Source: Candidatus Nitrosoglobus terrae
GTDB taxonomy: Bacteria > Pseudomonadota > Gammaproteobacteria > Nitrosococcales > Nitrosococcaceae
Length of the DNA stretch: 64,000 nucleotides
NCBI RefSeq assembly: GCF_002356115.1
Contig: NZ_AP014836.1
Coordinates: forward strand, 1,251,001-1,315,000
Direction of reading: 5' to 3'
Part shown: positions 14,801 to 58,736 of the stretch, in pieces
Layout of the letters: each line of letters starts with the position of its first letter
Position numbering within the stretch: position 1 is the first letter of the stretch
Made by a program: the position numbers and the translations under genes
Notes under the pieces: model-generated
Seen by the model: the letters and a program-made list of their open reading frames with translations, nothing else
Database searches by the model: none
What the model was told of the DNA's origin: nothing

Positions 14801-16851
14801 TAAACGGCAATATTACAGGTCAAGAAAACTCCGATAATACCCTCACCACAAAAACCGACTATCAGCCCTTTAACGGTATTTGCCTCACCGATACTTTCCA
14901 GATGACAGAAACCCCCGACTGGGTTGATAAACAACTCGAAGAAAACAGCGCCCGCCGTAAACGCCAACAAAGCCTAGATATTCGGGTGATTATGGGCAAC
15001 CCGCCCTATTCCGCTGGGCAAGAAAGCGCCAACGATAATAATGCCAATGTGGCTTATCCCAAACTCGATGAGCGCATCCGCCGCACCTATGCTGAGCACT
15101 CAACCGCCACTCTAAAGAATGCTTTATATGACAGCTATATTCGCGCCATTCGCTGGTCATCTGATCGGATTAAAGATCGTGGGGTGATTGGTTTTGTTAC
15201 CAATGGCGGCTTTTTAGAAGCCAACACCGCCGATGGCTTGCGTAAATGCTTAGCCGAAGAATTCAGTAATCTGTATATATTTCATTTACGCGGTAATCAA
15301 CGCACCTCTGGTGAACGCTCGCGCAAAGAAGGCGGCAAGATATTTGGCTCAGGTAGCCGCGCTCCTATCGCTATTTCTATTCTCGTAAAAAATCCCGATA
15401 GCTCAGCGCAAGGGCAAATTTACTTTTACGATATAGGCGATTACCTAAGCCAAAAAGAAAAACTAGAAATTATTGCTGAGCTAGGCAGTATTCAAGCCAT
15501 TACCGCCCAACACGGCTGGCAACCCATTACCCCCGATCGCTTTGGCGACTGGCTGAATCAGCGCGACCCGAATTTTGATAGCTACATCAGCTTGGGGGAT
15601 AAAAAAGATAAAAACGCTAAGGTGGTGTTTGAGAATTATTCTAGGGGCATAGCAACTAGTAGGGATGCATGGTGTTATAACGCTTCAAAAATAAAACTGC
15701 AAAAGCATATTCAGAAATCTATTAATTTTTATAACTCTGAGGTACAGCGCTATCTGGATGAAAAAAGCCAGCTAAAAGCTGAAGATTTTGCGAAATTTGA
15801 TTCAACTTCATTTACTTGGGATAGTGCAAATAAATGGGATTTAGAAAAAGGTAAATTTTACCCGTTTGATAGTCATGCGCTCTATAAGGCGATTTATAGA
15901 CCCTTTACAGGCTCTAATTTATATTTTCATCGATTGATGAATAATAGGGTTTATCAAATGCCCCAAATCTTCCCCACCCCAGAGAGCGAAAACTGGGTGA
16001 TTTCGGTAACAGGGCTTGGTACACCGAAAGAGTTTTCATGTGTTATTACCAATGTTATTCCTGATATTCAGTTACACGCCAATGGCCAATGCTTCCCCCT
16101 TTATCTCTACGAAAAAGCCGAGCCTAATATGGGTTTGTTCGCCCAAGCAGGGATTGAAGCCCAATACCAGCGCCGTGAGGCCATTACCAATGAAGCCTTG
16201 GCGCACTTTCAAGCGGCTTACCCAGAACTTAGCATCAGCAAAGAGGACATTTTCTACACCCTCTATGGTTTGCTCCACAGCGAGGATTACCGCGAGCAAT
16301 ACGCCGATAACCTCAGCAAACAGCTCCCACGGATACCACGGGTTAAAACCGCTCAAGTCTTTAGCGCCTTTACTCAAGCAGGCCGTGATTTGGCCGCGCT
16401 GCACTTAAATTATGAAACCGTGGTACTTAATACCACTGCCAAGCTGACGGGGAAAACCAAAGGCTTAACTATCACGGCTAATGGGGTTATTGGTGGCCAA
16501 GATAGTGATTTTTATGTCACTCAAATGAAGTTTGGCAAAACCAAAGACTCCGAAACCGGCAAGAGTGTAGAGGACAAAACCACCGTGATTTATAACCCCG
16601 GCATTACCATTGAACATATTCCCCTTGAATCTTACGACTACATTGTTAACGGCAAACCCGCCTTAGAATGGGTGATGGAGCGCCAAAGTGTGACTACTGA
16701 TAAAAAATCCGGCATTACCAACGACGCGAACGACTGGGCGCTTGAAACCATGGGCAACGCCAAATACCCACTAGAGCTATTCTTGCGCGTGATTACCGTG
16801 AGTCTGAAAACCCAAGCCATTGTGGGGAAATTGCCTAAATTAGAGATTTAA
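11824..16851 (+). CDS. Single-polypeptide restriction-modification enzyme (Type ISP, LlaGI-like)
   Basis: A 1675-residue fusion of everything needed for restriction and modification. The N-terminal Mrr-like nuclease has D72 in GIDLVAV and Q86-x-K88 in IQCKNYG. The SF2 helicase has Walker A GTGKT (201-205), DEAH (331-334), MTATPRIYG and QSVGRVMRT (from 600). The adenine methylase has motif I DPFTGTGTF (from 937) and motif IV NPPY (1059-1062). The C-terminal part, about 1200-1675, should be the target-recognition domain. This order and length match LlaGI/LlaBIII-type enzymes, which methylate one strand and translocate along DNA before cutting. The gene looks richer in GC than its neighbours, suggesting acquisition. 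The recognition site is unknown. Confidence 0.88.
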   Translation: MISALSALLTQFREQTLSVRDQGTSFEKLMLQYFKTEPFYQSQYREIFRYGDWVTRYGEPLGITSKQDTGIDLVAVTPEGQHHAIQCKNYGADKTINKTDIDSFFTASGKTYFSQRIIVTTTNHWTENAQRSLENQQPPVSTLDLHALENSIIDWSAYQVDTTQPVLKAQKQLRDHQQQALNHTLDRFKTADRGKLIMACGTGKTFTSLKIAEAIAGKGKRVLFLVPSLSLLSQTITEWTQESALPLTSFAVCSDSDVGKRQTKADDDRVITGLSDLQYPATTHAETLNRVMNTRPNDDSMTVVFSTYHSIAVLNEAQQQGLPAFDLIICDEAHRTTGATFDGEEESAFVRVHDNSFIQGHKRLYMTATPRIYGDDAKKTEGVTLCSMDDESIYGKDLYVITFSEAVARKLLVDYKVIVLAIEEAHINRRLQTLLTNQSNSLKVDDAAKIVGCWKALSKQDLLEGNAKLAEPMKRAVAFCQVIEKQYQGKKHKVSSKQIAEMFGAVVAQYQDFEKNELLNKDSTAPLDPALLMRCEAQHVDGTMNASEKEAKLSWLKATTEENTCRILSNVRCLAEGVDIPALDAVLFLTPRHSQVEVVQSVGRVMRTVKDENGNDLKKMGYVILPVVIPAGVEPEVALNNNETYRVVWQVLNALRAHDDRFDAMINKLEFNGTMPAKMEVIAIADKVTRKGERVNKQQRQAGQARGGNAIGNVAEDYPAYQYGMQFEVGEIERALYAKIVKKCGNRHHWEDWATDIAKIANTHIDRIKAILENQANSAEIAAFNTFAAELRDDLNNSISDAEIIEMLAQHLITQPVFEALFAQYHFAQHNPMSQALQRVLDTLHAQQLDKERDTLESFYESVKMRAEGIHSAEGKQRIVIELYDKFFRNAFPRMTERLGIVYTPIEVVDFIIHSVEHVLNSEFNSSLAEKNVHILDPFTGTGTFITRLLQSGIIPLEKLPNKYQQEIHANEIVLLAYYIAAINIEATYHGILNGNITGQENSDNTLTTKTDYQPFNGICLTDTFQMTETPDWVDKQLEENSARRKRQQSLDIRVIMGNPPYSAGQESANDNNANVAYPKLDERIRRTYAEHSTATLKNALYDSYIRAIRWSSDRIKDRGVIGFVTNGGFLEANTADGLRKCLAEEFSNLYIFHLRGNQRTSGERSRKEGGKIFGSGSRAPIAISILVKNPDSSAQGQIYFYDIGDYLSQKEKLEIIAELGSIQAITAQHGWQPITPDRFGDWLNQRDPNFDSYISLGDKKDKNAKVVFENYSRGIATSRDAWCYNASKIKLQKHIQKSINFYNSEVQRYLDEKSQLKAEDFAKFDSTSFTWDSANKWDLEKGKFYPFDSHALYKAIYRPFTGSNLYFHRLMNNRVYQMPQIFPTPESENWVISVTGLGTPKEFSCVITNVIPDIQLHANGQCFPLYLYEKAEPNMGLFAQAGIEAQYQRREAITNEALAHFQAAYPELSISKEDIFYTLYGLLHSEDYREQYADNLSKQLPRIPRVKTAQVFSAFTQAGRDLAALHLNYETVVLNTTAKLTGKTKGLTITANGVIGGQDSDFYVTQMKFGKTKDSETGKSVEDKTTVIYNPGITIEHIPLESYDYIVNGKPALEWVMERQSVTTDKKSGITNDANDWALETMGNAKYPLELFLRVITVSLKTQAIVGKLPKLEI

Positions 16852-44492: not shown

Positions 44493-45752
44493 TTAATTAT
44501 CGCAATAAGCCGCGTATATTTCTTGACGTAATGGCCTATACATCCACGGAAACCACCACATGAATAAAGAAGATACAGTATTAATAATATCAAGATATTG
44601 GTTTACCCTATATTGTTGTTTCCATTCTAAAGCGATCATCCCAACTGCTATACCTATCCCTCCCCATATAAATACCCTACCTGGTTGCTGAAAGCGAAGT
44701 ACTAACAGGCTAAGTGCAAGAAATGGCCAGCTACCTAGAAGAACATTAATAGTATTCATTAGATCACGATTAAGATACCCTTGAAATAGTATTGAGTTAA
44801 AATTAGCAGGGGCAACATTAGTTATAGGATCTAGTCTATTAATCGTAATAGCCCCAAAAAGCGCAGCAATACCCCCCACAATAATAATCTTGCGCGGTTG
44901 CTTATACAGCATAGCAAAACAAAGCATTCCAATCCCTGTGCCTACGATAGCTTCGGCAGTGAGTACGTGATTTATGATAGATACCTGAAGAATAAAGACT
45001 GCACTAACAAACCCTAAAAACCACCAAAATACGGGTTTATCAGGCTTAAAAGTTAAAGCAATGATTAATCCAAGGGCGGTAGTCTCTAAACTGTAGACTA
45101 TCGTTTGCCCAACTTCGAGAGAAGATCGCTGAGTAAGTACATACCAAAGTGGCTTAAGCCCTTGGCGTAAATTAGAAATATCAAGTGAAGGTATCCAAGG
45201 CATGGTTTGAGAAATAGCCCATAGTCCCAATAAAAATAGGCTTATATTTGCTAGTGCCCCAGACTGTATATAAGCCTGACGTATCGACAATAACCATATA
45301 TAGATCCCCTCTTGCGGGAAGAATGAAATACAAATTCCCCCACCTATGAATGCTCCAGCAACATTAGATATTATATCCCAGAGTGAAGGCACGCGAGCCG
45401 GCAAGAAAATTTGCAAAAACTCAAGAAAAGTGCTTAATAAAACTCCCCCTAATAAAGCTATCAAAAGCTTAATTACTGAAGATCGAGAAACTGTAGCATT
45501 AGCAAGTAGAAAACCCAGCGGTATATACATACTAACATTAGCAAAAATATCCGTATAACTCAGCTTCCATCCACGCTCAAAATCCAACTGCTGTTGGGTT
45601 TCAGAAGGTATTCGCCATCCCTGCCATGGATAAAGAGTCCCATAACACAAAAAACTCACATAAAGAATCACCGGCAGTAAGGAAAGCCATTTACTCTGCT
45701 GCTTAAATCTCACGGTATATAATTTTTCTTTAAGCATACAACCAGTAAACAT
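44493..45752 (-). CDS. VanZ-family membrane protein
   Basis: A 419-residue membrane protein with about ten helices. The first 130 residues match VanZ (DIFANVSMYIPLGFLLAN, then TFLEFLQIFLPARVPSLWDI and NVAGAFIGGGI). The rest is an extension with further helices. VanZ-like proteins often sit beside exopolysaccharide genes. It lies 89 bases after the UbiA-type transferase gene, same strand, so it may belong to the arabinose-lipid operon or to the surface-sugar region in general. The start could also be the second Met (MLKEKL). Confidence 0.78.
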   Translation of the reverse strand: MFTGCMLKEKLYTVRFKQQSKWLSLLPVILYVSFLCYGTLYPWQGWRIPSETQQQLDFERGWKLSYTDIFANVSMYIPLGFLLANATVSRSSVIKLLIALLGGVLLSTFLEFLQIFLPARVPSLWDIISNVAGAFIGGGICISFFPQEGIYIWLLSIRQAYIQSGALANISLFLLGLWAISQTMPWIPSLDISNLRQGLKPLWYVLTQRSSLEVGQTIVYSLETTALGLIIALTFKPDKPVFWWFLGFVSAVFILQVSIINHVLTAEAIVGTGIGMLCFAMLYKQPRKIIIVGGIAALFGAITINRLDPITNVAPANFNSILFQGYLNRDLMNTINVLLGSWPFLALSLLVLRFQQPGRVFIWGGIGIAVGMIALEWKQQYRVNQYLDIINTVSSLFMWWFPWMYRPLRQEIYAAYCDN

Positions 45753-45841: not shown

Positions 45842-46714
45842 CTAATAGATTAACCAAAGTGTAAGTACAGCCCAGCCTATTGCAGAAAATAAAATATGAG
45901 GATCTCGCCTCAGATCTTGGGATGGCTCTCCCCCTTTTCCTTGGTGATGAAGCAAAAATATATACCGAAAAATAGCATAGGCTACTAACGGCAATGTATA
46001 AATGAGGTTTTCAGTCCCATGAGCTTGAATAGTTTCCGGGCTCATAGTATAAAGGCCATAGGACATTAGCACGCAAGCTGCAGTTACTGTAATCATTTTA
46101 TCCAGTAAAATTGGACTATAATCAGCCAATACACGACGATGATTTGCTCCGCCTTCCTGTAAAACCATAATTTCAGCCCGCCGTTTTGCAAAACCTAAAA
46201 ATAGAGTAAGCATTAAAGAGCACAGCTCTAACCATCGAGAAGGGGCGATACCTACGCCCACTGTACCTGCCAAAATACGCAGCAAAAACCCAGTAGCGAT
46301 AATAAACACATCTAAAATTACGACATGTTTAAGCTTAAAGGAATACGCTAGATTCATAATAACGTAGCTCAACAAAATTAATAGGGCAGCACGAGAAACC
46401 CATTCACCTAATCCTAAGCTGATAACTCCTAGAACCATTGCTAAACTAATGGCGGCCTTTACCCCCACAGTGCCAGCAGCTAATGGTCGATATTGTTTAG
46501 TAGGATGGCTACGATCGTTTTCCCGATCAATTAAATCATTAAAAATATAAATAGCACTAGAAATCAGAGAAAAAGCAATAGCCATGGTAACCACCTGAGT
46601 AACCATAAAAAGATTACCCCAAGCGTGGCCAAAAAAGATACCCACAAGGACAAAGCTATTTTTCACCCACTGGTAAGGGCGCATCAAGTAAAACAGATCG
46701 CCCAAGCGATTCAA
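45842..46714 (-). CDS. UbiA-family 5-phosphoribosyl-polyprenyl-phosphate synthase (Rv3806c-like)
   Basis: A 290-residue polytopic UbiA-fold prenyltransferase-like enzyme. The first Asp-rich motif is NDLIDRENDRSHPTK followed by RPLAAG; the start LMRPYQWVKNSFV is typical of the Rv3806c branch, which joins PRPP to decaprenyl phosphate. It is the last of four overlapping genes with DprE1- and DprE2-like partners and a phosphatase. It should make polyprenyl-phosphoryl-5-phosphoribose at the inner membrane. The family branch is well supported; the lipid carrier would be undecaprenyl or octaprenyl phosphate here. Confidence 0.85.
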   Translation of the reverse strand: MNRLGDLFYLMRPYQWVKNSFVLVGIFFGHAWGNLFMVTQVVTMAIAFSLISSAIYIFNDLIDRENDRSHPTKQYRPLAAGTVGVKAAISLAMVLGVISLGLGEWVSRAALLILLSYVIMNLAYSFKLKHVVILDVFIIATGFLLRILAGTVGVGIAPSRWLELCSLMLTLFLGFAKRRAEIMVLQEGGANHRRVLADYSPILLDKMITVTAACVLMSYGLYTMSPETIQAHGTENLIYTLPLVAYAIFRYIFLLHHQGKGGEPSQDLRRDPHILFSAIGWAVLTLWLIY

Positions 46715-47337
46715 AAGACATTCTCCATGGGAAATTGGCGATAATAAGCATAATCTGCGTAATCTAGCAGTGCTTGATCTCCTTCACTATCTCCATAAGC
46801 ATACAAACAGTAATTACGACGATCTCCTAACAACGCTGTTAAACGTCGGATTTTTTCATCGCCATAGCAGTTTTCCCCATTTAACCGTCCCGTTACTAAA
46901 CCATCAATAGTTAGTTCTAGACGCGAACCAAGTACAGCAGTAAAACCTATTTTATTAGCCCAAGGTTTTAAATAAAGCTCCAAGGAGGCACTCACCAAAA
47001 TACAGCGATGATTCTGACACTGGTGCCATGCTAAGCGCTGTAATGCCTTACCGCGTAATAAATAGGGAAGAGGATATTGAATAAAATATTCTGCACTTTG
47101 CTCAAGCTTAGCCAGATTTTGCCCTGATAGGAAACGGGTTAAAACCCGCTGCTTAGCTTCATGATTACTTAAGTAGCCGCATTTATAGGCCAACAAAATA
47201 GGAGATACCTTAGTTAAATATTGAGTAAAACGCAGAGTTCCAACCACAGTCCATAGAAAAGGAAACAAGCTGTCCAGATAAGTCAGCGTACCATCGAAAT
47301 CAAACGCAGCAACAACAGGCAGGCTCTGATTTGCCAT
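46711..47337 (-). CDS. HAD-IB phosphatase of the DprE cluster
   Basis: A 208-residue HAD-superfamily hydrolase of the phosphoserine-phosphatase-like IB group. The nucleophile motif is FDFDGTLTYLDSL (Asp residues 13-15), motif II is LVSASLE and motif IV is AYGDSEGDQALL. It overlaps its neighbours by 4 bases (ubiA-like) and 1 base (dprE2-like). Its probable job is removing the 5-phosphate from polyprenyl-phosphoryl-5-phosphoribose, a step done by another phosphatase type in mycobacteria. That role is inferred from position. Confidence 0.78.
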   Translation of the reverse strand: MANQSLPVVAAFDFDGTLTYLDSLFPFLWTVVGTLRFTQYLTKVSPILLAYKCGYLSNHEAKQRVLTRFLSGQNLAKLEQSAEYFIQYPLPYLLRGKALQRLAWHQCQNHRCILVSASLELYLKPWANKIGFTAVLGSRLELTIDGLVTGRLNGENCYGDEKIRRLTALLGDRRNYCLYAYGDSEGDQALLDYADYAYYRQFPMENVF

Positions 47338-48077
47338 TAAAGCTTAAGGCGCTTAAACAAAAATTCCGGAATAGCGCAAATAATAAACATAATATAACGC
47401 CAAAACCAAGGGACGTAGACTCTATCTTGGCGTTGTTCCAAAGCAATGATAATCCGCTCACCTACGGTATAGGGTAAGGCAACCCAAAAAAGCCTAGGTA
47501 ACCCAAAGGTCATTCCAGTATCTACAAAGCCTAGCTTAACTGTGAGTACCTGTACTCTTGAGACAAATAAACGGTTACGCAATCCTTGAAGAAAAATACT
47601 GAGCCCACCCTTAGCAGCACCATAATAATAATTACTTTGCCGGCCTCGATCCCCTGCCACCGAAGATAAACCAATAATAAAACCTGATCGTTTATTTTCT
47701 AAGTAATTCGCACACTCATTAAGTAGGGAAACAGCACCGATGAGATTTATAGCCATAATCTTTTTTACTTCTTCAAATTCTGTCCGAGCTGCCACCGTAT
47801 CACCTAAATAGCCGAAAGCTAATACTACCCCTTCTAGTCCCCCCATTGTTTCAACCGCCTGCTCTAAAAACAAACCATGGGCTGCATAGTTACCAGCATC
47901 AACAGTTCCCCAGTGCACCTTTATCTGATAGCGAATTATAAGATCTGCTGCAATTCGTGCTAACTCAGCTTCATCTCGCCCACCCAAGTATAGCGGATGG
48001 CCACGGCGTGCCAATGCTACTGCCGTACCACGGGCGATTGCAGAGGTAGCGCCTAGAATCAGAACAGCGCCCCTCAT
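47337..48077 (-). CDS. SDR-family reductase, DprE2-like
   Basis: A 246-residue short-chain dehydrogenase. The cofactor motif is GATSAIARGTAVALARRG with GGRDEAEL after it; the catalytic set is Ser in IGLSSVAGDRGRQ and Tyr-x3-Lys in YYYGAAKG. The opening and the RGRQSNYYYGAAKG block are typical of DprE2, which reduces the 2-keto intermediate to polyprenyl-phosphoryl-arabinose. A C-terminal hydrophobic stretch may hold it to the membrane. It overlaps the oxidase by four bases. Confidence 0.84.
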   Translation of the reverse strand: MRGAVLILGATSAIARGTAVALARRGHPLYLGGRDEAELARIAADLIIRYQIKVHWGTVDAGNYAAHGLFLEQAVETMGGLEGVVLAFGYLGDTVAARTEFEEVKKIMAINLIGAVSLLNECANYLENKRSGFIIGLSSVAGDRGRQSNYYYGAAKGGLSIFLQGLRNRLFVSRVQVLTVKLGFVDTGMTFGLPRLFWVALPYTVGERIIIALEQRQDRVYVPWFWRYIMFIICAIPEFLFKRLKL

Positions 48078-49432
48078 AGCGTACCTGCCAGTTGAAGGCG
48101 GCGAGAGAGGTCAGATTGAAATCGCCTCTCTGGATCAACGACCTGCTTAATACGCTGCCATTCTTCGAGCCGTGGGTACATAGCTCGTAGACTCTCAGGA
48201 CTTAAACAAGCATCCTTGGCTAAATACACCCGCCCTCCATATTTGATGACTAATTCATCTAATTGCTGTAACAGATTGAGCACCTTTTTACCCGTCATAG
48301 GTAAATCTAAGGCTAAGGTATAGCCCGCTACAGGAAAAGATAAAAGCCCCGCGTTAGCCGAGCCAAATCTTTTAAGTACTGCTAAAAACGCTCCCTGCCG
48401 ACTATTGATGAGATGCTCTAATAAACGGCGTATCCCCTCATGGGCATAGGGATCAGGGATTGCTACTTGATACTGAAGGAATCCTCGTCTGCCATATAAG
48501 CGATTCCAATGAGCTAACGCATCCAAAGGATAAAAAAAGGAAGCATAATCAGTAATAAAAGATCCTTTTTTCCTTCCTTGATGGCGATAATAACGTTCAT
48601 TAAAAACAGCCATAGTAAACCGGTTAAGCACAAAAGAAGGAAAGTTAAAAGGAATACTTTTTGAGCATAAAGGGGGAACGAAAAACGGATCTTTCCAATC
48701 ATCTGGTAGCTCATCACGACGCGCATGATGTCCTTTCATTACAATACTGCGACCAAAATGACGGCGAGCACTGGCACAATCGATCCAAGCAACTGTGTAT
48801 TGATCATCATAGTCCGTATCTTCAAGCCACTTGAAAGTGACCTCTAGATCAGAGGCGGGATTATGTTCAGCCATAATAGCTGCTGTTTCAATGGGAATTA
48901 GCCGAAAACTAGCCTCAGTAATAATGCCAGTTAAACCCATTCCTCCCAAGGTAGCCCAAAAAAGCGATTCATTTTTTTCTGGAGAACAACGCTGACGATG
49001 ACCATCAGCGAGCATTAGCTCTAGTTCCGTAACATGAACACCCAATGTCCCCGCATGATGATGGTTTTTACCGTGAACATCAGCCGCTATGGCTCCACCA
49101 ATAGAGACATACTGCGTCCCAGGAGTAACTGCTGGAAACCAGCCTCGAGGGACAAAAGTTTCCAAAATTTCAGCTAAAGTAGCCCCAGCCTCAGCTGTCA
49201 ATATCCCTGTAGAGTCATCAAAAGCTAGAAACCGGTTAAGACGTTCACTTAACATCACTTGGCCTTGGGAAGAAATGGCTGCATCTCCATAGCTTCGTCC
49301 CTGCCCCCGGCAGATAAGACTACCCTGCTTTGGTATATTTACATCCCGCATTAGCTCAGGGCGAATAAGTATAGATTTTGCTGTGGGATAACACCCCCAG
49401 CCAGAGATAGTTTTACTCAGTGATCTTGTCAT
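48074..49432 (-). CDS. FAD-dependent oxidase, DprE1-like
   Basis: A 452-residue FAD oxidoreductase matching decaprenylphosphoryl-ribose 2'-oxidase. The FAD region contains GQGRSYGDAAI and GGAIAADVHGKNHHHAG; the C-terminus has GGRVYLAKDACLSPESLRAM, with Lys406 matching the catalytic Lys418 of the M. tuberculosis enzyme (recalled alignment). At the benzothiazinone-target Cys387 position this protein has Ala374 (GYTLALDLP). It oxidises C2 of a lipid-linked ribose; the next gene then reduces the ketone. It heads the operon. A tnpB relic ends just before its ATG, and no clear ribosome site is seen. Confidence 0.86.
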   Translation of the reverse strand: MTRSLSKTISGWGCYPTAKSILIRPELMRDVNIPKQGSLICRGQGRSYGDAAISSQGQVMLSERLNRFLAFDDSTGILTAEAGATLAEILETFVPRGWFPAVTPGTQYVSIGGAIAADVHGKNHHHAGTLGVHVTELELMLADGHRQRCSPEKNESLFWATLGGMGLTGIITEASFRLIPIETAAIMAEHNPASDLEVTFKWLEDTDYDDQYTVAWIDCASARRHFGRSIVMKGHHARRDELPDDWKDPFFVPPLCSKSIPFNFPSFVLNRFTMAVFNERYYRHQGRKKGSFITDYASFFYPLDALAHWNRLYGRRGFLQYQVAIPDPYAHEGIRRLLEHLINSRQGAFLAVLKRFGSANAGLLSFPVAGYTLALDLPMTGKKVLNLLQQLDELVIKYGGRVYLAKDACLSPESLRAMYPRLEEWQRIKQVVDPERRFQSDLSRRLQLAGTL

Positions 49433-49439
49433 CGAAATG

Positions 49440-50503
49440 CGCGAGAGACCCTGGTGTTCAGGCCGGGGAGGGATAGCGCATCGGCGTAAAGCCGACCCTG
49501 TTCTCGCTTCTCCTTTGTCGTTGGCTATCTTTTTGTTTCGGCATTATCACATAATCTAAGATAAAATGTGAATTATGAAAGTCAAGCGCGCATACAAATA
49601 CAGATTCTATCCAGACCCCGAGCAAACAGAACTGCTTGCAAAGACGTTTGGTTGTGTGCGCTTTGTCTACAATCACCTCCTGAGATACCGAACGGATGCG
49701 TACTATCAGGCCAAGGAGAAGATCAATTACATTGGCGCTAATGCCAAGCTGACCGAGATCAAACAAAAGCCTGAGTTTGCTTTTCTCAATGAAATTTCTA
49801 GTGTTCCTTTGCAACAATGCCTGAGAAATCAGCAGGCCGCCTTCAAAAACTTCCCCCAAGCGAACCTACGCTGCTGCCGGTTACCGATAAAAAGGTCGGC
49901 ATCGATGTAGGCATTAAGAATTTATTCGTCACCAGTGATGGCTTCAAATCCGGAAATCCACGCCATAGGATGAAGTACGTCGCCAAGCTTGCCAAATACC
50001 AACGCCGCCTTGCCAAGAAAAAACTTGGCGGCAAGAACCGGCAAAAGGCAAAGCTCAAGGTGGCCCGTATTCACGCCAAAATCTCCGATTGCCGGATGGA
50101 TAACTTTCCCGCAAAAACCTTGCGGTGAAGAACATGATTAAAAACCCGAAACTGGCAAAGCCCATCGCCGATGCAAGCTGGGGAGAATTTACTCGGCAGT
50201 TGGAATACAAGGCCAAGTGGGCCGGTAGAGTGTATATCGAAATTGACCGATTCCTCCCTTCGTCAAAACGCTGCCACTGCTGCGGGTTTGTTTCTGAATC
50301 GATGCTGCTTGATGTCTGCTCGTGGATCTGTCTAGAATGCGAGAGAAAACACGACCGCGATGTTAATGCGGCGTGTAATATAAAAGCCGCCGGACTGGCG
50401 GTGTTAGCCTTTGGAGACTGAGTAAGCGGCGGTAGCATTTCGCTGTTGTCGTTCCGCGATCGATGAATTAGGAATCCCCTTCCTTTGGGGAGGGGGATGT
50501 CAA
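49440..50503 (+). mobile_element. Decayed IS200/IS605-family tnpB element
   Basis: A tnpB relic (see pseudogene) with flanking non-coding ends fills the whole gap between the DprE1-like start (49432) and the ligase stop (50513). The right end has the hairpin TCCCCTTCC/GGGGAGGGGG (50474-50496) and the tail ATGTCAA (50497-50503). The left part contains GC-rich inverted sequence CCCTGGTG/CGGGGAGGG. No tnpA is present. Exact boundaries are uncertain by several bases. Confidence 0.7.
49575..50421 (+). pseudogene. tnpB: RNA-guided nuclease TnpB, broken
   Basis: Three frames together spell a TnpB with pieces missing. Frame one (49575-49850) is the N-terminus KRAYKYRFYPDPEQTELLAK up to QAAFKNF. Frame two (about 49880-50100) begins at RuvC-I VGIDVGIKNLFVTSDG. 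Frame three (50110-50421) has NLAVKNMIKNPKLAKPIAD, a zinc finger CHCCGF...CLEC and the RuvC-III DRDVNAACN. Around 90 codons before RuvC-I and some 15 around the RuvC-II Glu are lost, so nuclease activity should be gone. Confidence 0.85.
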
Positions 50504-50512
50504 ATATCTGTT

Positions 50513-51871
50513 TTACTGCTTCTTTAATCTTAACTGATTCCGTCTATTCATTGGATATGGCTTCCTTTTAAAACGATTAGTACTTCCTTTTCTCGCTTCA
50601 CTTATATTATTACCACGCTGCCACTCATCAACCTCTTTTTGCAAGATAGCACTCACAGCTACCCAAGTATAAAATAAATCAAAATAGGCAAGGCTGAGAA
50701 ATGCACCCGAGACGCCATAGCCCACGAGAGAGATTTGTATAGCCTTTGCGTATGTTCTTATCCACGCCATTTCAGGGGGATATTCCAACTTGCTAAGCTT
50801 TCCTAACTGAAAAATTGTGCCCCACAGTAACAGCACAAACAAAAAAAATACGATAAAACCATGTTCCCCCATAGTTTGAAAATAGATACTGTGAGCTGCC
50901 TTTGCTTTTCTCTTCCAGTTGCCAATAAAATTGGCATAACTCAGCCAGCGCTCAGTATCCCCATTATAAAATCGCATCCCGGCCCCTAGAAAAGGGCGAT
51001 CTTTAGCAACGTTAAATGCTACCCCCCAAGCCTGAATACGCTGCAGTGAGGAGCGATCTTTTTCATAGCTAACGGTGGTCTGTTGCCGAGCGACCCATTC
51101 TTGGGGCATCAGGTTTTTGCCAAACGTAAAAACTAAAGGGGCTATTAAAAGTACTGTAAACAACTGGCGCTTATACTGCCAAAAAATGACAAATATAACG
51201 ACAACAAGACCCACCATGGCTCCACGGGAATAAGTTCCTAAGATAGCGGGAATAGTCAGCCAAAATGTAGCAAATAAAGCTAATCGAATCCACTTATCTG
51301 ACTCCTCGCGAGCCATGAACAGAGCAAGGGGTAGTATCATAAGCAATACTAGTCCCATTTCGTTGTTATCTCCAAAAAAAGATTCTGGTGGCCCCAATAC
51401 TCTATTATGCCCACCTGTTACAATAGTAAAAATCCCTCCCTTAACCCCATAAAACCCTAAGGATCCTACAATGACTAAACATAAAGCACGGATTCGATAT
51501 CGCCCATAAATCATCATCGCTGTTATGAAGGTAAATAAAAAAACCTTCTCATCTCTATTCCATTCCTCATAGGCTTCTTCTGGATACCAAGCAAAAATCG
51601 TCGTAATTGTAAAATACACCATAAAGATAGCAATTGTGATCATTCCTCGCGTCCAAGGAATCGATCGCCGATCTTTAGCAAAGAATAGCCCAAAAATAGT
51701 GGCTCCCCCAATAGCCATGGCCACAGGCAAGCTTGCAAGAGTCCAGCTCAACTTATGAGGATTCATATAACTTAGCCATGACCAAGCCAATACGCCAATC
51801 CATGGCCGAATCAGACTCGCTGGCACTAACGCGACTAAAATTGCCAATATGACAATATCACGTAAACCCAT
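50513..51871 (-). CDS. O-antigen ligase-like protein, exosortase-A-associated type
   Basis: A 452-residue polytopic membrane protein with 11-12 helices and a Wzy_C/O-antigen-ligase core. GTYSRGAMVGLVVVIF and HSIYFQTMGEHGFIVF are typical periplasmic-loop and helix segments. The start GLRDIVILAILVALVPASLI matches the family named O-glycosylation ligase of the exosortase A system. It joins or transfers polymerised sugar units. The C-terminal 40 residues are very basic. It ends ten bases before the tnpB element and is 2 bases behind a glycosyltransferase. Confidence 0.85.
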   Translation of the reverse strand: MGLRDIVILAILVALVPASLIRPWIGVLAWSWLSYMNPHKLSWTLASLPVAMAIGGATIFGLFFAKDRRSIPWTRGMITIAIFMVYFTITTIFAWYPEEAYEEWNRDEKVFLFTFITAMMIYGRYRIRALCLVIVGSLGFYGVKGGIFTIVTGGHNRVLGPPESFFGDNNEMGLVLLMILPLALFMAREESDKWIRLALFATFWLTIPAILGTYSRGAMVGLVVVIFVIFWQYKRQLFTVLLIAPLVFTFGKNLMPQEWVARQQTTVSYEKDRSSLQRIQAWGVAFNVAKDRPFLGAGMRFYNGDTERWLSYANFIGNWKRKAKAAHSIYFQTMGEHGFIVFFLFVLLLWGTIFQLGKLSKLEYPPEMAWIRTYAKAIQISLVGYGVSGAFLSLAYFDLFYTWVAVSAILQKEVDEWQRGNNISEARKGSTNRFKRKPYPMNRRNQLRLKKQ

Positions 51872-51873
51872 GT

Positions 51874-53052
51874 TTACTTCCCTGAAAAAGAATTAGCAGC
51901 AGCTTGAAATACTGCATCTAATTCTTCGGCCTTCCGCATCCAAGTATAGTGACTACAAACCGTTTTTCGTCCCTCTTGGCCAAGGGATTGTTGCCATTTT
52001 CTATCCTTAATAACCTTTATTGTTGCTTTGGCTATAGCTTCGGCACCAGCACAAATAAGGATATTTTCATTTTCTTGAATTACCAACCCACCTGCAGCAA
52101 CGGGTGAAGCAATAACGGGTTTACTCATTGCCCAAGCCTGTAGTATTTTATTTTTTATTCCAGCGCCCTTTCGCATTGGGCAAACAAATACGGTTGCTCG
52201 CGCTAAATAGGGTCTTACCTCTTCAACAAATCCCGTTACAATGACGTTATCTCTCGCCAATGCTTGTACGGCTGGAGCAGGATCTCGTCCCACAAGAATT
52301 ACTTTTACCTCCGGTATTTGCTGTTGAATTCGAGGTAAAATCTCTTGTACTAAAAAACAGGCAGCATCTATATTCGGCTGAAATCCCATTGACCCTTCAA
52401 ATACAATAGTTGCCGGATCTGAATCTCCCTCAAAAGGGTAAAAATAGTTTTCATCTACCCCATTGTGAATCGTATATATGGGCGTATTAGGGCACACACG
52501 GCTCAAAACACTTGCTTCTAGCTCGCTGACCACAATACAAGCATCGGCGGGACAAAAATAGCAGCGCTCAAATAATGCATTTTGCACTAAACGCTTTCCC
52601 ATTCGTATCCGTTCCATAAAATGAGTAGCGGTACATAATTCTCGCCAATACTCGACAATTCCCTCGTCAACAATATCGGCAACAAAAGGCAGTGATCTAG
52701 AACGAGGTACATTCACCACGGTATTCCAGCCTGACATCCATACGAGATCATATGCTTGACTGGACATATGCTGCTGAAGCCAATCTATCATGGGCTGGCT
52801 TTGATGAGATAAATCTATTGAAAGCATTCTCCGTAACCGCATTCCTAGAGCCTCTTTTTTTGGTTGCGGTTGTGGAAAGACAATAATTTTATGAAACAAA
52901 TCCTTTAAAGGAGAAGGGATATCCTTATCCCCGTAACAGGCCAGATCAAAACGATGTTTAGATAATAAGGAGCGCACATAATGATAAATACGAAGATTTT
53001 GCCCATTATGCAGCGGGAAGGGATAACGATCACAAAGAACAAGAATCCGCAT
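51874..53052 (-). CDS. Glycosyltransferase (PEP-CTERM/EpsH-associated, TIGR03087-like)
   Basis: A 392-residue GT-B glycosyltransferase. The start MRILVLCDRYPFPLHNGQN and the acceptor-side HNGVDENYFYP, plus GSMGFQPNIDA and the donor segment KGAGIKNKILQAWAM, match the sugar transferase group found with exosortase loci. It builds a surface polysaccharide on a lipid carrier in the cytoplasm. It lies between the ligase and a GT2 gene, all in one direction. Confidence 0.82.
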   Translation of the reverse strand: MRILVLCDRYPFPLHNGQNLRIYHYVRSLLSKHRFDLACYGDKDIPSPLKDLFHKIIVFPQPQPKKEALGMRLRRMLSIDLSHQSQPMIDWLQQHMSSQAYDLVWMSGWNTVVNVPRSRSLPFVADIVDEGIVEYWRELCTATHFMERIRMGKRLVQNALFERCYFCPADACIVVSELEASVLSRVCPNTPIYTIHNGVDENYFYPFEGDSDPATIVFEGSMGFQPNIDAACFLVQEILPRIQQQIPEVKVILVGRDPAPAVQALARDNVIVTGFVEEVRPYLARATVFVCPMRKGAGIKNKILQAWAMSKPVIASPVAAGGLVIQENENILICAGAEAIAKATIKVIKDRKWQQSLGQEGRKTVCSHYTWMRKAEELDAVFQAAANSFSGK

Positions 53053-53062
53053 TAGGTGTCAC

Positions 53063-53992
53063 TTAATTGGGTCTTCGCCCTAGAAATAGCTCCACGAAAA
53101 CCTTTACTAGACCAATAGCTGCAGTTTTATTTAAATTTGCCGCCAAGCTACCAAGATAACAGCTCAATGCATTCCCATAACGCCCCTGCTGCCGTGCTTG
53201 ATAGGCACGCGCACATCGAACGATTCTAAGCTTCTTCATTAACGCTCTTTGCTGGCTTGTCGTTAACTTACCCACGCGTTGCCTAAATGTGGCTAATACC
53301 TGTTCCGTTTCTAATAATACTGCATCAAGAGCACTACCTAAACTATCTGGATAATCGTATGTACGCACAAGAGGCCTTTCTATGGCAGCTATCCTATAGC
53401 GCCTCGAAATTCGGAGCCATAAATCAAGATCTTCACCAATTCTAAATTGCTCATCAAAAAGATTTTCTCTAAAGAGCTCCGCACGCCCCACTACAGTGGG
53501 TGTAGCTACAAATAAGGAGGTGCAAATTCGCTCAAAGCCATCACGGAATATGAGACCCTCACTATCCCGCTCACCTCCCGGCAGATAAACGGAAGTATGT
53601 TGATCAAATCCATTTATAATAAATTGATTATTTCGCCATTTTTCAAAATTAGTACAGATTAAACCCACATCAGAGTAGCGTTGCATAATCTCCAATTCAG
53701 GGCGTAATTTGCCTTCTAGCCATTCATCATCTGCGTCAAGAAATGCAATATATTCCCCTTGGCTGGCTTTGATCCCTATGTTTCTAGCGCCTCCAGCACC
53801 TATCCCTGAGGTACGGATAACTTGCACTTCCTTATAACTAGAAGCTAGCGCTCCTGTCTCATCTGTTGAACCATCATCAATCACAATTAATTCAGTAGGT
53901 AAATTAACCTTTAAAACACTCTCAATAGCCCTAGATAATGTTTCAGTAGCATTTCGGGCAGGGATAATAACAGTTGTCTTCGCTACCCGCAC
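53063..53992 (-). CDS. Family 2 glycosyltransferase
   Basis: A 309-residue GT-A transferase. The nucleotide motifs are IIPARNATETLSRAIES and VIDDGSTDETG, the metal site is FLDADDEW, and GARNIGIKASQGEYIAF is the family core. The C-terminal 60 residues are basic and helical and may lie on the membrane. It adds one sugar in the polysaccharide pathway; donor and acceptor cannot be read. Confidence 0.87.
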   Translation of the reverse strand: MRVAKTTVIIPARNATETLSRAIESVLKVNLPTELIVIDDGSTDETGALASSYKEVQVIRTSGIGAGGARNIGIKASQGEYIAFLDADDEWLEGKLRPELEIMQRYSDVGLICTNFEKWRNNQFIINGFDQHTSVYLPGGERDSEGLIFRDGFERICTSLFVATPTVVGRAELFRENLFDEQFRIGEDLDLWLRISRRYRIAAIERPLVRTYDYPDSLGSALDAVLLETEQVLATFRQRVGKLTTSQQRALMKKLRIVRCARAYQARQQGRYGNALSCYLGSLAANLNKTAAIGLVKVFVELFLGRRPN

Positions 53993-54027: not shown

Positions 54028-55245
54028 CTACCTACCAGCCGCTATCGCTTCTAAGCAAAGATTATCTAATATAGCAAGATTATGATTCGCGTCAAAGTAC
54101 GTTGCTGCACGCTTATAGCCGGCTTTACCTAACCTAATTCGTAAATCGCGATCTAAGGCAAGCTGCTCAATAGCTAATGCCAATTCTTGATCACTACCTG
54201 CTTGATGAAATAACCCAGTTTGCCCTTCAAGTACAATTTCACGAGGGCCGGGTAGATCTGCAGCGATTACTGGACGTGATGCGGCCATAGCTTCTACCAA
54301 CACCGTTCCAAATGGCTCTTTAAGAGAAGCATGAACAAAAAGATCAGCTGCAGTCATCACTGCAGGAATATCATTCATAAAACCTAAAAAATGCACAGAC
54401 TCCGCTAATCCTAGCTGTTCCACAAGGCGGTAAATATCTTTCTTATAGGGCTCACCATCATGATAAAGGGTAGTATCACCCGCAATAATTACCTTAATTT
54501 GAGGTACCCGCCCTCGAACCTTAGCAACCGCCCGGAGAAATACCTCATACCCTTTCTGCGGTACCATACGAGCTACAAACGCTATTACCAAAGCTTCTTG
54601 TGAGATATTTAGATGAGCGCGAAGATCCTGCCCTCTATCTTGGGCAGTATTATAGGTATTGAGCGGAATCCCATTAGGGATAACTTCAACTAATGTAGGA
54701 TTAACACCTGCCTCCAGCATAGCTTCCGCCTCATAACGGGTTGTTGCTGCTACACGGAATACGTTTTCATTAAGAAAGCGTACAAGTTCTTGGCGTTGCT
54801 CCAGCTTAATACCCCAAGGAACAAAGGTATCTGCTCTAGCACGCCATATCACTGTAAGCCCTCTTCGAACTGCTAACCGGCCACCCGTATTTAAATCAGG
54901 ATAGGTATTACAAACAACTATTGACTTAAGACTAGATGTATTTTTTATTGTCCGGAATAAGCGATCAAGACGCCAACGGCCAAGACGTCGCGCTAGCAAC
55001 CCAGTAATGCCGCTAGCCGATCCGTGCCAACCAGACACTAACACGCTACAGCCAAATGCTTGTACTCTATTTACAAGAGAACCATTTTCACCTAACACTA
55101 CAGTGATATCTTTATGGGGAAACTTTGTGCCTTGAATATGATCTAATAACCTTAATTCACCACCCCCTAAATCTCCGTACCAAGACAAATAGACAAGATT
55201 ACCTACAGCGCGATGAATCGCCGCTTGATCTTTATTAACGGCCAT
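54028..55245 (-). CDS. Family 4 glycosyltransferase
   Basis: A 405-residue GT-B transferase. The N-terminal acceptor domain has LSWYGDLGGGELRLLD. The donor domain has VARMVPQKGYEVFLRAVAKV and the retaining-GT signature EPFGTVLVEAMA. It starts the leftward run of three glycosyltransferases and the ligase, 35 bases upstream of the GT2 gene. It is divergent from the TPR gene, with a 59-base gap. Confidence 0.88.
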   Translation of the reverse strand: MAVNKDQAAIHRAVGNLVYLSWYGDLGGGELRLLDHIQGTKFPHKDITVVLGENGSLVNRVQAFGCSVLVSGWHGSASGITGLLARRLGRWRLDRLFRTIKNTSSLKSIVVCNTYPDLNTGGRLAVRRGLTVIWRARADTFVPWGIKLEQRQELVRFLNENVFRVAATTRYEAEAMLEAGVNPTLVEVIPNGIPLNTYNTAQDRGQDLRAHLNISQEALVIAFVARMVPQKGYEVFLRAVAKVRGRVPQIKVIIAGDTTLYHDGEPYKKDIYRLVEQLGLAESVHFLGFMNDIPAVMTAADLFVHASLKEPFGTVLVEAMAASRPVIAADLPGPREIVLEGQTGLFHQAGSDQELALAIEQLALDRDLRIRLGKAGYKRAATYFDANHNLAILDNLCLEAIAAGR

Positions 55246-55963: not shown

Positions 55964-58421
55964 AGCTTAATATTAGTTAAATTACTGCTCTCATATTGTT
56001 TAAAAACCCTTAGGCAGCCACCTAATTATTCGGTATATTTTCCCCCGTACCCTCAAACTGTCTTAAATCCACCAGCCCAATATGAGTCATCGGATGAGAA
56101 TAATCACAACCGGCATCCCCCACACAGCCAAAGAGCACCATCCAACCCGAGCTATGCCAAGTCATGGTGTTACCTTTAATCTTATCGGTTAACGTCGTCG
56201 CGGGATCATCCCACACCACCTTTTGGTAAGTATCTTTAGCGGCATCATAGACGTACACTGAAGAGGGATACGTAAACTGGTTTATCTTGCCTGATACGCC
56301 ATTATTCATCTGCTTATACATGGCTATCTTATCGCCTAAGGCCGCCATGTACACTCTTCCCCAATCATCCCCATTCCCATCGCGCAAGTCATCAGGCAGC
56401 AATCCCATTTCCTCAAAGGTATGGGTATCAATATTCCAGCGCCATAAACTATAGACATCTCCAAAGCCTTTCATGATGCTGCTGGCCTCATTGGTAATAT
56501 AGATATAGCGGCCTACCTGCGCTACCGTGCCATCGGCAAACAAGCCAAAGGTATGGGGATAGGTGGCCCATGTTTGGGTATCGGGGTCAAAGTAGTAGGC
56601 GCTACGGTCATCTAGGAAAATCAGTTTATCCGTTTGAGCATCATAAATCCCATGGGCAGAGGGTCTTGGTCGAGCTTGCATGGTCTTCATCGGCTCTGCC
56701 GGTAAGCCTTCCGGCTGTACCCATTGACGGCTGATAAAGTCAAAGTAAGAGAGAATACCAAAGCCCCCCCCTTGATTACAGGTGTCATTGTAGGGATACC
56801 AAATCCCAGGCCCTAGCCACATCCGTTGTCGTTTCGTATCCCATAGCTGGCCCACTTCATCGGGATGCCTAGGATAGTTGCCCGTCGAGTTACCACAGTA
56901 ATGGGCTTCTATTTTCCAAGTGTTCGCAAGGACATCATAGCTGTGTAAATCTTGTCGGCCATCTTGGGCAACGACGCTATCTCCAAAAGGAAACGGGGTA
57001 TAATCTCCTCCACCCCAGTCACCGGCCACCACATACAGCTTGCCATCTCCCAGTTCTGTTAAGCGCATATGCTTAGCGGCTCCATAGGGGCTTAGGCTGC
57101 TTTTTAACGGCGGTAGCGCTTGCGGGACGGCAGTCACTTTAATCTCTCCAGAAATAATCTGGGCCGGTGCACCAGAGGAACTTGGGGGGGGAGTTACCGG
57201 CGGACTTACCGGCGGAGTCACAGGGGGCGGGGGAGTAGGGTTTGAACCCACAGAAGAGCTGCCACTGATAGGAACGCCTAATTGTTGAGCTTTTTGTGCT
57301 AACAGTGCCATAAGCTCATTTTTAGTCATTACCACATCAGGATAATTTTCTGTGTACTGTTGTAGCAATATATTCAATTGCTTTTGTAGAGCTTGGATTT
57401 GGCTATCAGTAGAGCTTGATCCGCTCCCACCAGAGGAACTTGGGGGGGGAGTTACCGGCGGACTTACCGGCGGAGTCACAGGGGGCGGGGGAGGATCTGG
57501 ATTTACCGGCGGTGAGGTAGGCGGTACAGAACCACTACTGCCCCCCGATACATTACCAGCCAACTGTAAGCACCAAGTATTACTACTACTATAGCCTCCA
57601 GAGATAATATTTCCATTGCTATCAAAATAGGCCCCCCCCCGATAACAGTGCTTCTCTGTCGTCGGATCATAGGCCCCAAACGGCATCCGTACCGCCGGCA
57701 TATTGGCTTGGGCGGTAATGTCTACCCAAGCAGGCCCCTGGTTATGAATATTCCAAGTAAACACACTATTGGTGCCCGTCCAGTTGGCATTGGATCCCAG
57801 TGTGGTAGGATTGCCCCCATAGACAACAATGTCTCCTGTGCCTTGATCATAGGTGACTTGGGGATAGGAACGGCTAACCGGTAGATTAGGAAGACTCACA
57901 TCCCATTGCCGGGTTACTAAATTAAATCTTCTAAACTTTTTGCTATCAACCAATACGCCTCCCTCATTACACACCCCGCCCACAATGTACACCCACTGTC
58001 CCGCCGCTACCGCGCTATTACGCATGTTTTCACAGGCATCGGTGTTGGCCACTCCATTTACAGGCTCCAAGCTATAAGTTCCATCAGACTGGGGATGAAT
58101 CAGCGTAATAAATTTACTCGGGCTACCGTTGAACGCTCCACCATAGACAAAGCCCATGTTTTGATCTTCACTCCAGACCATCGCTGGATTAAAGGCAGAC
58201 CAGTTAAATCCGGCAGGCGCTTTAAACAACCCGCCCATCACCGTATTAATATCAACCCACTGGAGGCTAGCGTAATCAAAGAAACCATTCTGGTTAGGTT
58301 TGCCATTTAAATAAGCGCCTCCCAAAATCACCAGCCCTCTACCAGGGATACTTAGACTTAAGTGGTTGTCTCGATCGTTAATTCCATTTCCCGTTATCGC
58401 AAAGGTGGGCCCTGAACCTTC
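55925..58421. repeat. Long direct repeat, copy B (kelch gene and trailer)
   Basis: This is the counterpart of 30021-32259. It differs by a 258-base insertion (about 57236-57493 counted from the first linker) flanked by a repeated linker, and by few point changes. Both copies lie on the same strand 25.9 kb apart. Confidence 0.92.
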
Positions 58422-58736
58422 ATTGGCTTGTTGTAGATAGCTAAAGGTATTGCTCGATGAATCAAAACATCGTACTGAGTTGTTTGGCGTTCCTGCAGTG
58501 GCATTGCCAAATAAAAAAATAATACAGTTGCGTCCATCGCCTACCTTAGCATAAGCCCCTGAGGTCCACCCCGCAGTATAATTCGACGGATCATGATACG
58601 GGCCTGTAATCATTGCTGCTTGCGCAGATCCTGCTAGAATTACTAGAGCACATACTAATACCCAGCATTTAATAAAGCTAACAATCTCATGCTGTCTAAA
58701 AATGATGCTTAGCAAGATAAAATTAAAAGATAACAT
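56022..58736 (-). CDS. Secreted two-domain kelch/beta-propeller protein (copy 2)
   Basis: A 904-residue exported protein, near-identical to the 30118-32514 product from about residue 105 onward. The N-terminus has a longer signal region (FIKCWVLVCALVILAGSAQA) and shares only amino-acid similarity with copy 1 up to GSGPTFA. Between the propellers there is an extra 86-residue segment with a helical stretch (IQALQKQLNILLQQYTENYP) and a second Pro-rich linker. Its place beside the amidotransferase and glycosyltransferases suggests a role with the exopolysaccharide. It lacks a visible cell-wall or PEP-CTERM anchor. Confidence 0.78.
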   Translation of the reverse strand: MLSFNFILLSIIFRQHEIVSFIKCWVLVCALVILAGSAQAAMITGPYHDPSNYTAGWTSGAYAKVGDGRNCIIFLFGNATAGTPNNSVRCFDSSSNTFSYLQQANEGSGPTFAITGNGINDRDNHLSLSIPGRGLVILGGAYLNGKPNQNGFFDYASLQWVDINTVMGGLFKAPAGFNWSAFNPAMVWSEDQNMGFVYGGAFNGSPSKFITLIHPQSDGTYSLEPVNGVANTDACENMRNSAVAAGQWVYIVGGVCNEGGVLVDSKKFRRFNLVTRQWDVSLPNLPVSRSYPQVTYDQGTGDIVVYGGNPTTLGSNANWTGTNSVFTWNIHNQGPAWVDITAQANMPAVRMPFGAYDPTTEKHCYRGGAYFDSNGNIISGGYSSSNTWCLQLAGNVSGGSSGSVPPTSPPVNPDPPPPPVTPPVSPPVTPPPSSSGGSGSSSTDSQIQALQKQLNILLQQYTENYPDVVMTKNELMALLAQKAQQLGVPISGSSSVGSNPTPPPPVTPPVSPPVTPPPSSSGAPAQIISGEIKVTAVPQALPPLKSSLSPYGAAKHMRLTELGDGKLYVVAGDWGGGDYTPFPFGDSVVAQDGRQDLHSYDVLANTWKIEAHYCGNSTGNYPRHPDEVGQLWDTKRQRMWLGPGIWYPYNDTCNQGGGFGILSYFDFISRQWVQPEGLPAEPMKTMQARPRPSAHGIYDAQTDKLIFLDDRSAYYFDPDTQTWATYPHTFGLFADGTVAQVGRYIYITNEASSIMKGFGDVYSLWRWNIDTHTFEEMGLLPDDLRDGNGDDWGRVYMAALGDKIAMYKQMNNGVSGKINQFTYPSSVYVYDAAKDTYQKVVWDDPATTLTDKIKGNTMTWHSSGWMVLFGCVGDAGCDYSHPMTHIGLVDLRQFEGTGENIPNN

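Follow-up and report, generated by a model that had tools for sequence, protein, structure and literature searches.

D-arabinofuranose (D-Araf) is usually seen as a mycobacterial hallmark, and the pathway to it as a tuberculosis drug target. The mycobacterial decaprenylphosphoryl-arabinose (DPA) pathway comprises a UbiA-type phosphoribosyltransferase (Rv3806c), a phosphatase (Rv3807c), DprE1 (Rv3790) and DprE2 (Rv3791). Lipid-linked pentofuranose systems have also been published for Gram-negative bacteria, with DprE1/E2 homologues where the glycan carries Araf and with HAD phosphatases in the phosphatase role (Kelly et al. 2024, PMC11127046). In Citrobacter the donor route was established experimentally for ribose, and the side-chain pentofuranoses surveyed by Kelly et al. 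are, all but one, alpha-linked (PMC11127046). D-Araf has been reported on the pili of Pseudomonas paraeruginosa (PMC12369383). Here a 64,000-nucleotide stretch of the genome of Candidatus Nitrosoglobus terrae (NZ_AP014836.1, positions 1,251,001 to 1,315,000; hereafter the window) was analysed, and a four-gene operon within it was compared with these systems. The organism is probably an ammonia oxidiser, and a literature search found no paper tying a D-arabinose donor pathway to ammonia oxidisers. The most far-reaching reading, to which we give a probability of about 0.4, is that this ammonia-oxidising Gram-negative adds beta-D-Araf to a surface glycan or glycoprotein through a retaining AftB-type (GT89-like) transferase, and that genes elsewhere in the genome now stand in for a flippase and a transferase that the donor operon once had.

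The donor operon

Four intact, overlapping open reading frames on the same strand fill window positions 45842-49432 exactly, with overlaps of 1-4 bases:

48074-49432, minus strand: DprE1 homologue, polyprenylphosphoryl-beta-D-ribofuranose 2-oxidase, 452 aa (family and PDB match, motifs)
47337-48077, minus strand: DprE2 homologue, SDR-family keto reductase, 246 aa (family and PDB match, motifs)
46711-47337, minus strand: HAD-IB phosphatase, predicted polyprenyl-P-ribose-5-phosphate phosphatase, 208 aa (TIGR01490, E 3e-39)
45842-46714, minus strand: UbiA-family decaprenyl(polyprenyl)-phosphate phosphoribosyltransferase, 290 aa, TTG start (family and PDB match)

The DprE1 homologue matches NCBIfam NF053785 (E 4e-134; 448 bits, under the model cut-off of 500) and, in the PDB, mycobacterial DprE1 (4aut, E 1.7e-95). 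Its motifs, FAD-binding among them, are kept (GRSYGD, DVHGKNHH, GFLQYQ, K354, K406), and the catalytic lysine is retained in the alignment with mycobacterial DprE1. The benzothiazinone-binding Cys387 (M. tuberculosis numbering) aligns to Ala374 of the window protein, so that benzothiazinones are expected not to trap it covalently. The adjoining gene encodes the DprE2-type SDR protein, which carries the S-YxxxK motif, scores above the cut-off of NF005489/PRK07102 (270 against 267 bits) and below that of the DprE2 model NF053786 (E 7e-41; 140 against 250 bits), and finds its top PDB match in the DprE2 chain of 21gq (E 3e-18). By these scores the two proteins are homologues in the same operon context that fall outside the curated, mycobacterial-centred equivalog models. 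The phosphatase has all four HAD motifs (DFDGTLT, SAS, K, GDSEGD) and its gene is linked to that of the phosphoribosyltransferase; a PDB search matched no solved structure to it by sequence. The UbiA protein exceeds the cut-off of NF008977 (decaprenyl-phosphate phosphoribosyltransferase; 277.8 against 234 bits), matches PDB 8j8j (E 1.9e-40) and contains the motif NDxxDxxxDRxHPTK for Mg and phosphoribosyl pyrophosphate (PRPP). The operon genes are 71-78% identical to those of Nitrosococcus-like relatives. The ratio of nonsynonymous to synonymous substitution (dN/dS) is ~0.04-0.08 where dS is finite, dS being near saturation, and the genes are under purifying selection.

The first-pass annotation, made from the letters of the window, had described a complete DprE1-DprE2-phosphatase-UbiA operon and a mycobacterial-type route from PRPP to lipid-linked D-Araf. 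The four genes are borne out by reading frames, family and PDB matches and motifs, far beyond chance, and their identities agree with the predicted route. "Complete" holds for donor synthesis, but not beyond it: the flippase-like fifth gene and the neighbouring GT-C of relatives are absent.

Very probably, the operon makes polyprenyl-phosphoryl-beta-D-arabinofuranose as a lipid-linked donor. The UbiA-type phosphoribosyltransferase would convert PRPP to polyprenyl-P-ribose-5-P, the HAD phosphatase would yield polyprenyl-P-ribose, and DprE1/DprE2 are predicted to epimerise this at C2 to polyprenyl-P-D-arabinofuranose. Flipping of the donor to the periplasm would then fall to a protein other than the product of the usual partner gene, which the operon lacks. 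In the periplasm D-Araf would be transferred by at least one GT-C, most likely the AftB-like orphan described below, and the acceptor would be a glycan or glycoprotein of the cell surface. The exosortase A exopolysaccharide is a candidate acceptor by the position of the donor operon only. The substrate, the flipping, the linkage and the acceptor are all matters that we infer from sequence.

Compared with the DPA pathway, the phosphoribosyltransferase, DprE1 and DprE2 are homologous, their catalytic motifs are kept and the predicted product is the same, whereas the phosphatase is of the HAD-IB rather than the Rv3807c type and the lipid is probably undecaprenyl. That the HAD phosphatase differs from the mycobacterial one had been pointed out in the first-pass annotation; the difference stands, but not its novelty, since such phosphatases are already published in this pathway (PMC11127046). 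The three-component systems of Citrobacter youngae O1/O2 are alike in using a UbiA-type phosphoribosyltransferase and a HAD phosphoribose phosphatase for the lipid donor, and the Gram-negative Araf systems in having DprE1/E2 homologues (PMC11127046). Unlike in C. youngae, HAD and UbiA are separate, unfused proteins in the window, and neither a flippase nor a GT-C is linked; the GT-C is present in the genome, but elsewhere. The D-Araf genes of P. aeruginosa/paraeruginosa PA7 (PSPA7_6245-6251), which serve pilin arabinosylation with TfpW, represent the same donor pathway in a Gram-negative, a parallel correctly drawn at first pass. The window operon lies in an exosortase A exopolysaccharide context, not beside pilin genes, and its candidate transferase is AftB-like.

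The AftB-like transferase and the flippase question

A PMT_2 search of the organism's own genome (G000) gave two sub-threshold GT-Cs. The candidate for the end step is:

G000:C1:1924580-1926142 (L029:8578-10143): AftB-like orphan GT-C, 521 aa, 625 kb from the operon

This protein matches the NCBIfam AftB model NF041481 (terminal beta-(1->2)-arabinofuranosyltransferase; E 2e-23, 82 bits), and its sole PDB match is AftB (9dlf, E 1e-19). In AftB (GT89; PDB 9dlf/9dlh), the catalytic residue D62 is essential, as are R221 and R372, and the residues in contact with the donor analogue include T91, E172 and T274 (PMC12041299). All seven residues examined in the alignment, McAftB D61, D62, T91, E172, R221, T274 and R372, are kept, as D29, D30, T59, E129, R169, T223 and R298. 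The homology covers about two-thirds of the orphan's length; at 521 aa against ~650 it has a shorter C-terminal periplasmic part, its overall score is low, and its acceptor cannot be mycobacterial arabinan. By sequence comparison it is a distant homologue and not an AftB orthologue. Its transfer is predicted, by homology, to be retaining and beta-linked, and the odds that it catalyses the end step seem about even. The genome search for a GT-C arabinosyltransferase proposed at first pass was in this sense positive. An AftB-like transferase in the genome favours D-Araf over another pentose, and real use of D-arabinose by the organism appears likely. At E <= 1e-10 the AftB-like protein was found in three genomes of the class sample, all three of which carry DprE1 (hypergeometric ~0.006, or ~0.03 without the organism's own genome, with shared ancestry not controlled).

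Several points weigh against this scheme of donor synthesis, flipping and AftB-type transfer. The 82 bits compare with an AftB equivalog cut-off of 1050, and the gene lies apart from the operon and outside the exosortase locus; with no linkage and a score so far under the cut-off, the acceptor, and even the donor, could differ. Within the family the protein occurs in G000 only: the nearest same-operon relatives, which are Nitrosococcus-like, lack it and must use another GT-C. One of the four genomes matching NF041481 (G020) has a short, partial match and no DprE1. No flippase gene was found in the operon or adjoining it. The genome has no GtrA, and PF03706 occurs there only as HpnL, the SMR/EamA families not having been searched genome-wide. 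The PF03706 protein was itself considered as donor flippase and rejected, being HpnL in a hopanoid cluster with HpnJ and HpnK as neighbours.

AftB-like GT-Cs were found beside DprE1 at one of 80 loci (L060) by a regular-expression search, so linkage to DprE operons is not general. Homologues occur in plasmid-collection records of Leptospira, Rhodococcus (annotated zomB) and Nocardia; the protein of Leptospira interrogans NZ_CP020413.2 (L162:7920-9851), annotated as hypothetical, is 28% identical over 80% of the query. The organism's genome also encodes a second GT-C-like protein (724 aa, L029:14500-16674), whose gene is 4.4 kb away from that of the AftB-like protein and whose membrane helices are followed by a long C-terminal part. 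It matches no protein family, has only weak, partial relatives among the six related genomes, and remains a candidate.

Relatives and the exosortase A surroundings

Among six family genomes the DprE operon is common to G000, G002 and G003 (DprE1 identity 73-76%); G001 has a divergent operon (43% identity), and G004 and G005 have none. In the DprE1 tree the window joins G002 and G003 (SH-aLRT 100), and their clade also holds Nitrosomonadales, Gallionella and Moraxellaceae. The G001 protein belongs to another clade, so that the family appears to have acquired the pathway on at least two occasions.

DprE1, DprE2, HAD, UbiA and PF03706 occur together, with PF03706 after UbiA, in nine of nine sampled relatives of the window clade (L024, L025, L031-L034, L051, L059 and L148). 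The window is the exception to this group, its operon having no PF03706 gene. In many alphaproteobacterial loci GtrA adjoins DprE1 in place of PF03706; near DprE1, GtrA was found at 17 and PF03706 at 10 of the 46 loci with enough flank, two of these having both. By inference PF03706 (TIGR00374, "flippase-like") is an alternative donor flippase.

In G002, DprE1 has a GT-C-like and a PEP-CTERM gene next to it, and G003 is arranged similarly; the GT-C of these two Nitrosococcus-like genomes has no counterpart in the organism's own genome. One such PEP-CTERM gene beside DprE1 lies at L024:7539-8384, with sulfotransferase-like and GT-C-like genes nearby. The divergent operon of G001 contains a tandem array of three to four paralogues, polytopic proteins of ~380 aa with no Pfam or NCBIfam match (L026:12468-17009), and in Paraperlucidibaca a relative of these (L051:12772-13791) stands between the HAD and UbiA genes. 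They are a candidate unnamed GT-C pentofuranosyltransferase family.

The operon is located inside an exosortase A exopolysaccharide locus, and the exopolysaccharide neighbourhood noted at first pass was correct (exosortase A, PEP_O_lig_1, stp1). Its neighbours are:

44493-45752, minus strand: membrane protein of the VanZ family, downstream of UbiA; belongs to the exosortase locus and not to the arabinose operon
49575-50421, plus strand: broken transposase-like gene, IS200/IS605 OrfB-like, in three frames (transposase identity by inspection only)
50513-51871, minus strand: PEP_O_lig_1, putative exosortase A-associated O-glycosylation ligase (TIGR03097, 464 bits)
51874-53052, minus strand: GT4 glycosyltransferase, stp1-like, of the exosortase locus (TIGR03087, under cut-off)
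53063-53992, minus strand: GT2 glycosyltransferase of the exosortase locus
54028-55245, minus strand: GT4 glycosyltransferase of the exosortase locus

Farther upstream come a MOP flippase and exosortase A (XrtA, with 348 bits well over its cut-off of 208). The transposase-like remnant separates DprE1 from PEP_O_lig_1; in two relatives the GT-C and PEP-CTERM genes occupy this place. The VanZ protein was considered as a substitute flippase and rejected as an exosortase-locus member: homologues occur in three relatives, including G005, which has no DprE, and in G002 the gene is ~25 kb from DprE. Also encoded in the locus is a protein of 904 aa in which Kelch-like repeats flank a proline-rich linker (window 56022-58736). 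Elsewhere the window holds an intact-looking single-chain type ISP restriction-modification enzyme of 1675 aa, with Mrr-like nuclease, helicase, coupler, methylase and specificity domains (11824-16851).

Alternative explanations and distribution

The setting of the operon near PEP_O_lig_1, and the PEP-CTERM and GT-C-like genes that adjoin DprE1 in a Nitrosococcus-like relative, would also suit an unrecognised enzyme of the exosortase locus that puts D-Araf on the exosortase A exopolysaccharide or on PEP-CTERM proteins, the AftB-like orphan having another target. This appears unlikely: no recognisable GT-C was found in the window's part of the locus, where the neighbouring glycosyltransferases are GT2 and GT4. 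The same surroundings could instead record decay, in which the donor is still made but transfer was lost through a transposon-marked rearrangement that removed the GT-C, PEP-CTERM and PF03706 genes, and the AftB-like protein has some other role. The constancy of PF03706 in the nine relatives, the missing upstream GT-C and the broken transposase-like gene in the gap all fit such a remnant. It is nevertheless improbable, given four intact genes with active-site motifs and low dN/dS, a small genome expected to shed idle genes, and an AftB-type transferase with kept donor-binding residues.

That the donor is another pentofuranose, such as unepimerised ribose or xylose, with DprE1/DprE2 acting on another lipid-linked sugar, is slightly less probable still. 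Lipid-linked ribose and xylose systems share the same first two enzymes (PMC11127046), and DprE1 and DprE2 both score under their curated equivalog cut-offs. A separate oxidase and reductase pair, however, marks the arabinose route, the xylose system having a single epimerase of another kind; the top PDB matches are mycobacterial DprE1 and DprE2, and the AftB-type transferase argues in the same direction.

The pathway itself is common in Gram-negative bacteria, and the window operon is no rarity. Of the 369 genomes sampled from the class, 69 (19%) have DprE1 (E <= 1e-40), and a scan of species genomes gave at least 579 confirmed DprE1 relatives, of which the 80 retained span many phyla, including Planctomycetes, Bacteroidetes, Cyanobacteria and Acidobacteria. 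It is carried by 62 plasmids; none was found on phages. The novelty ascribed to the operon at first pass was overstated at this frequency and with the Gram-negative pathway in print (PMC11127046). What is unusual here is the unlinked AftB-like transferase together with the missing flippase gene.

The window operon is further evidence for a wide distribution of the donor pathway among environmental Gram-negatives. For the organism, the prediction is that D-Araf is present and is beta-linked by the AftB homologue. If this is true, AftB-type retaining beta-D-Araf transfer, so far known from the mycobacterial group, would occur in an ammonia oxidiser.

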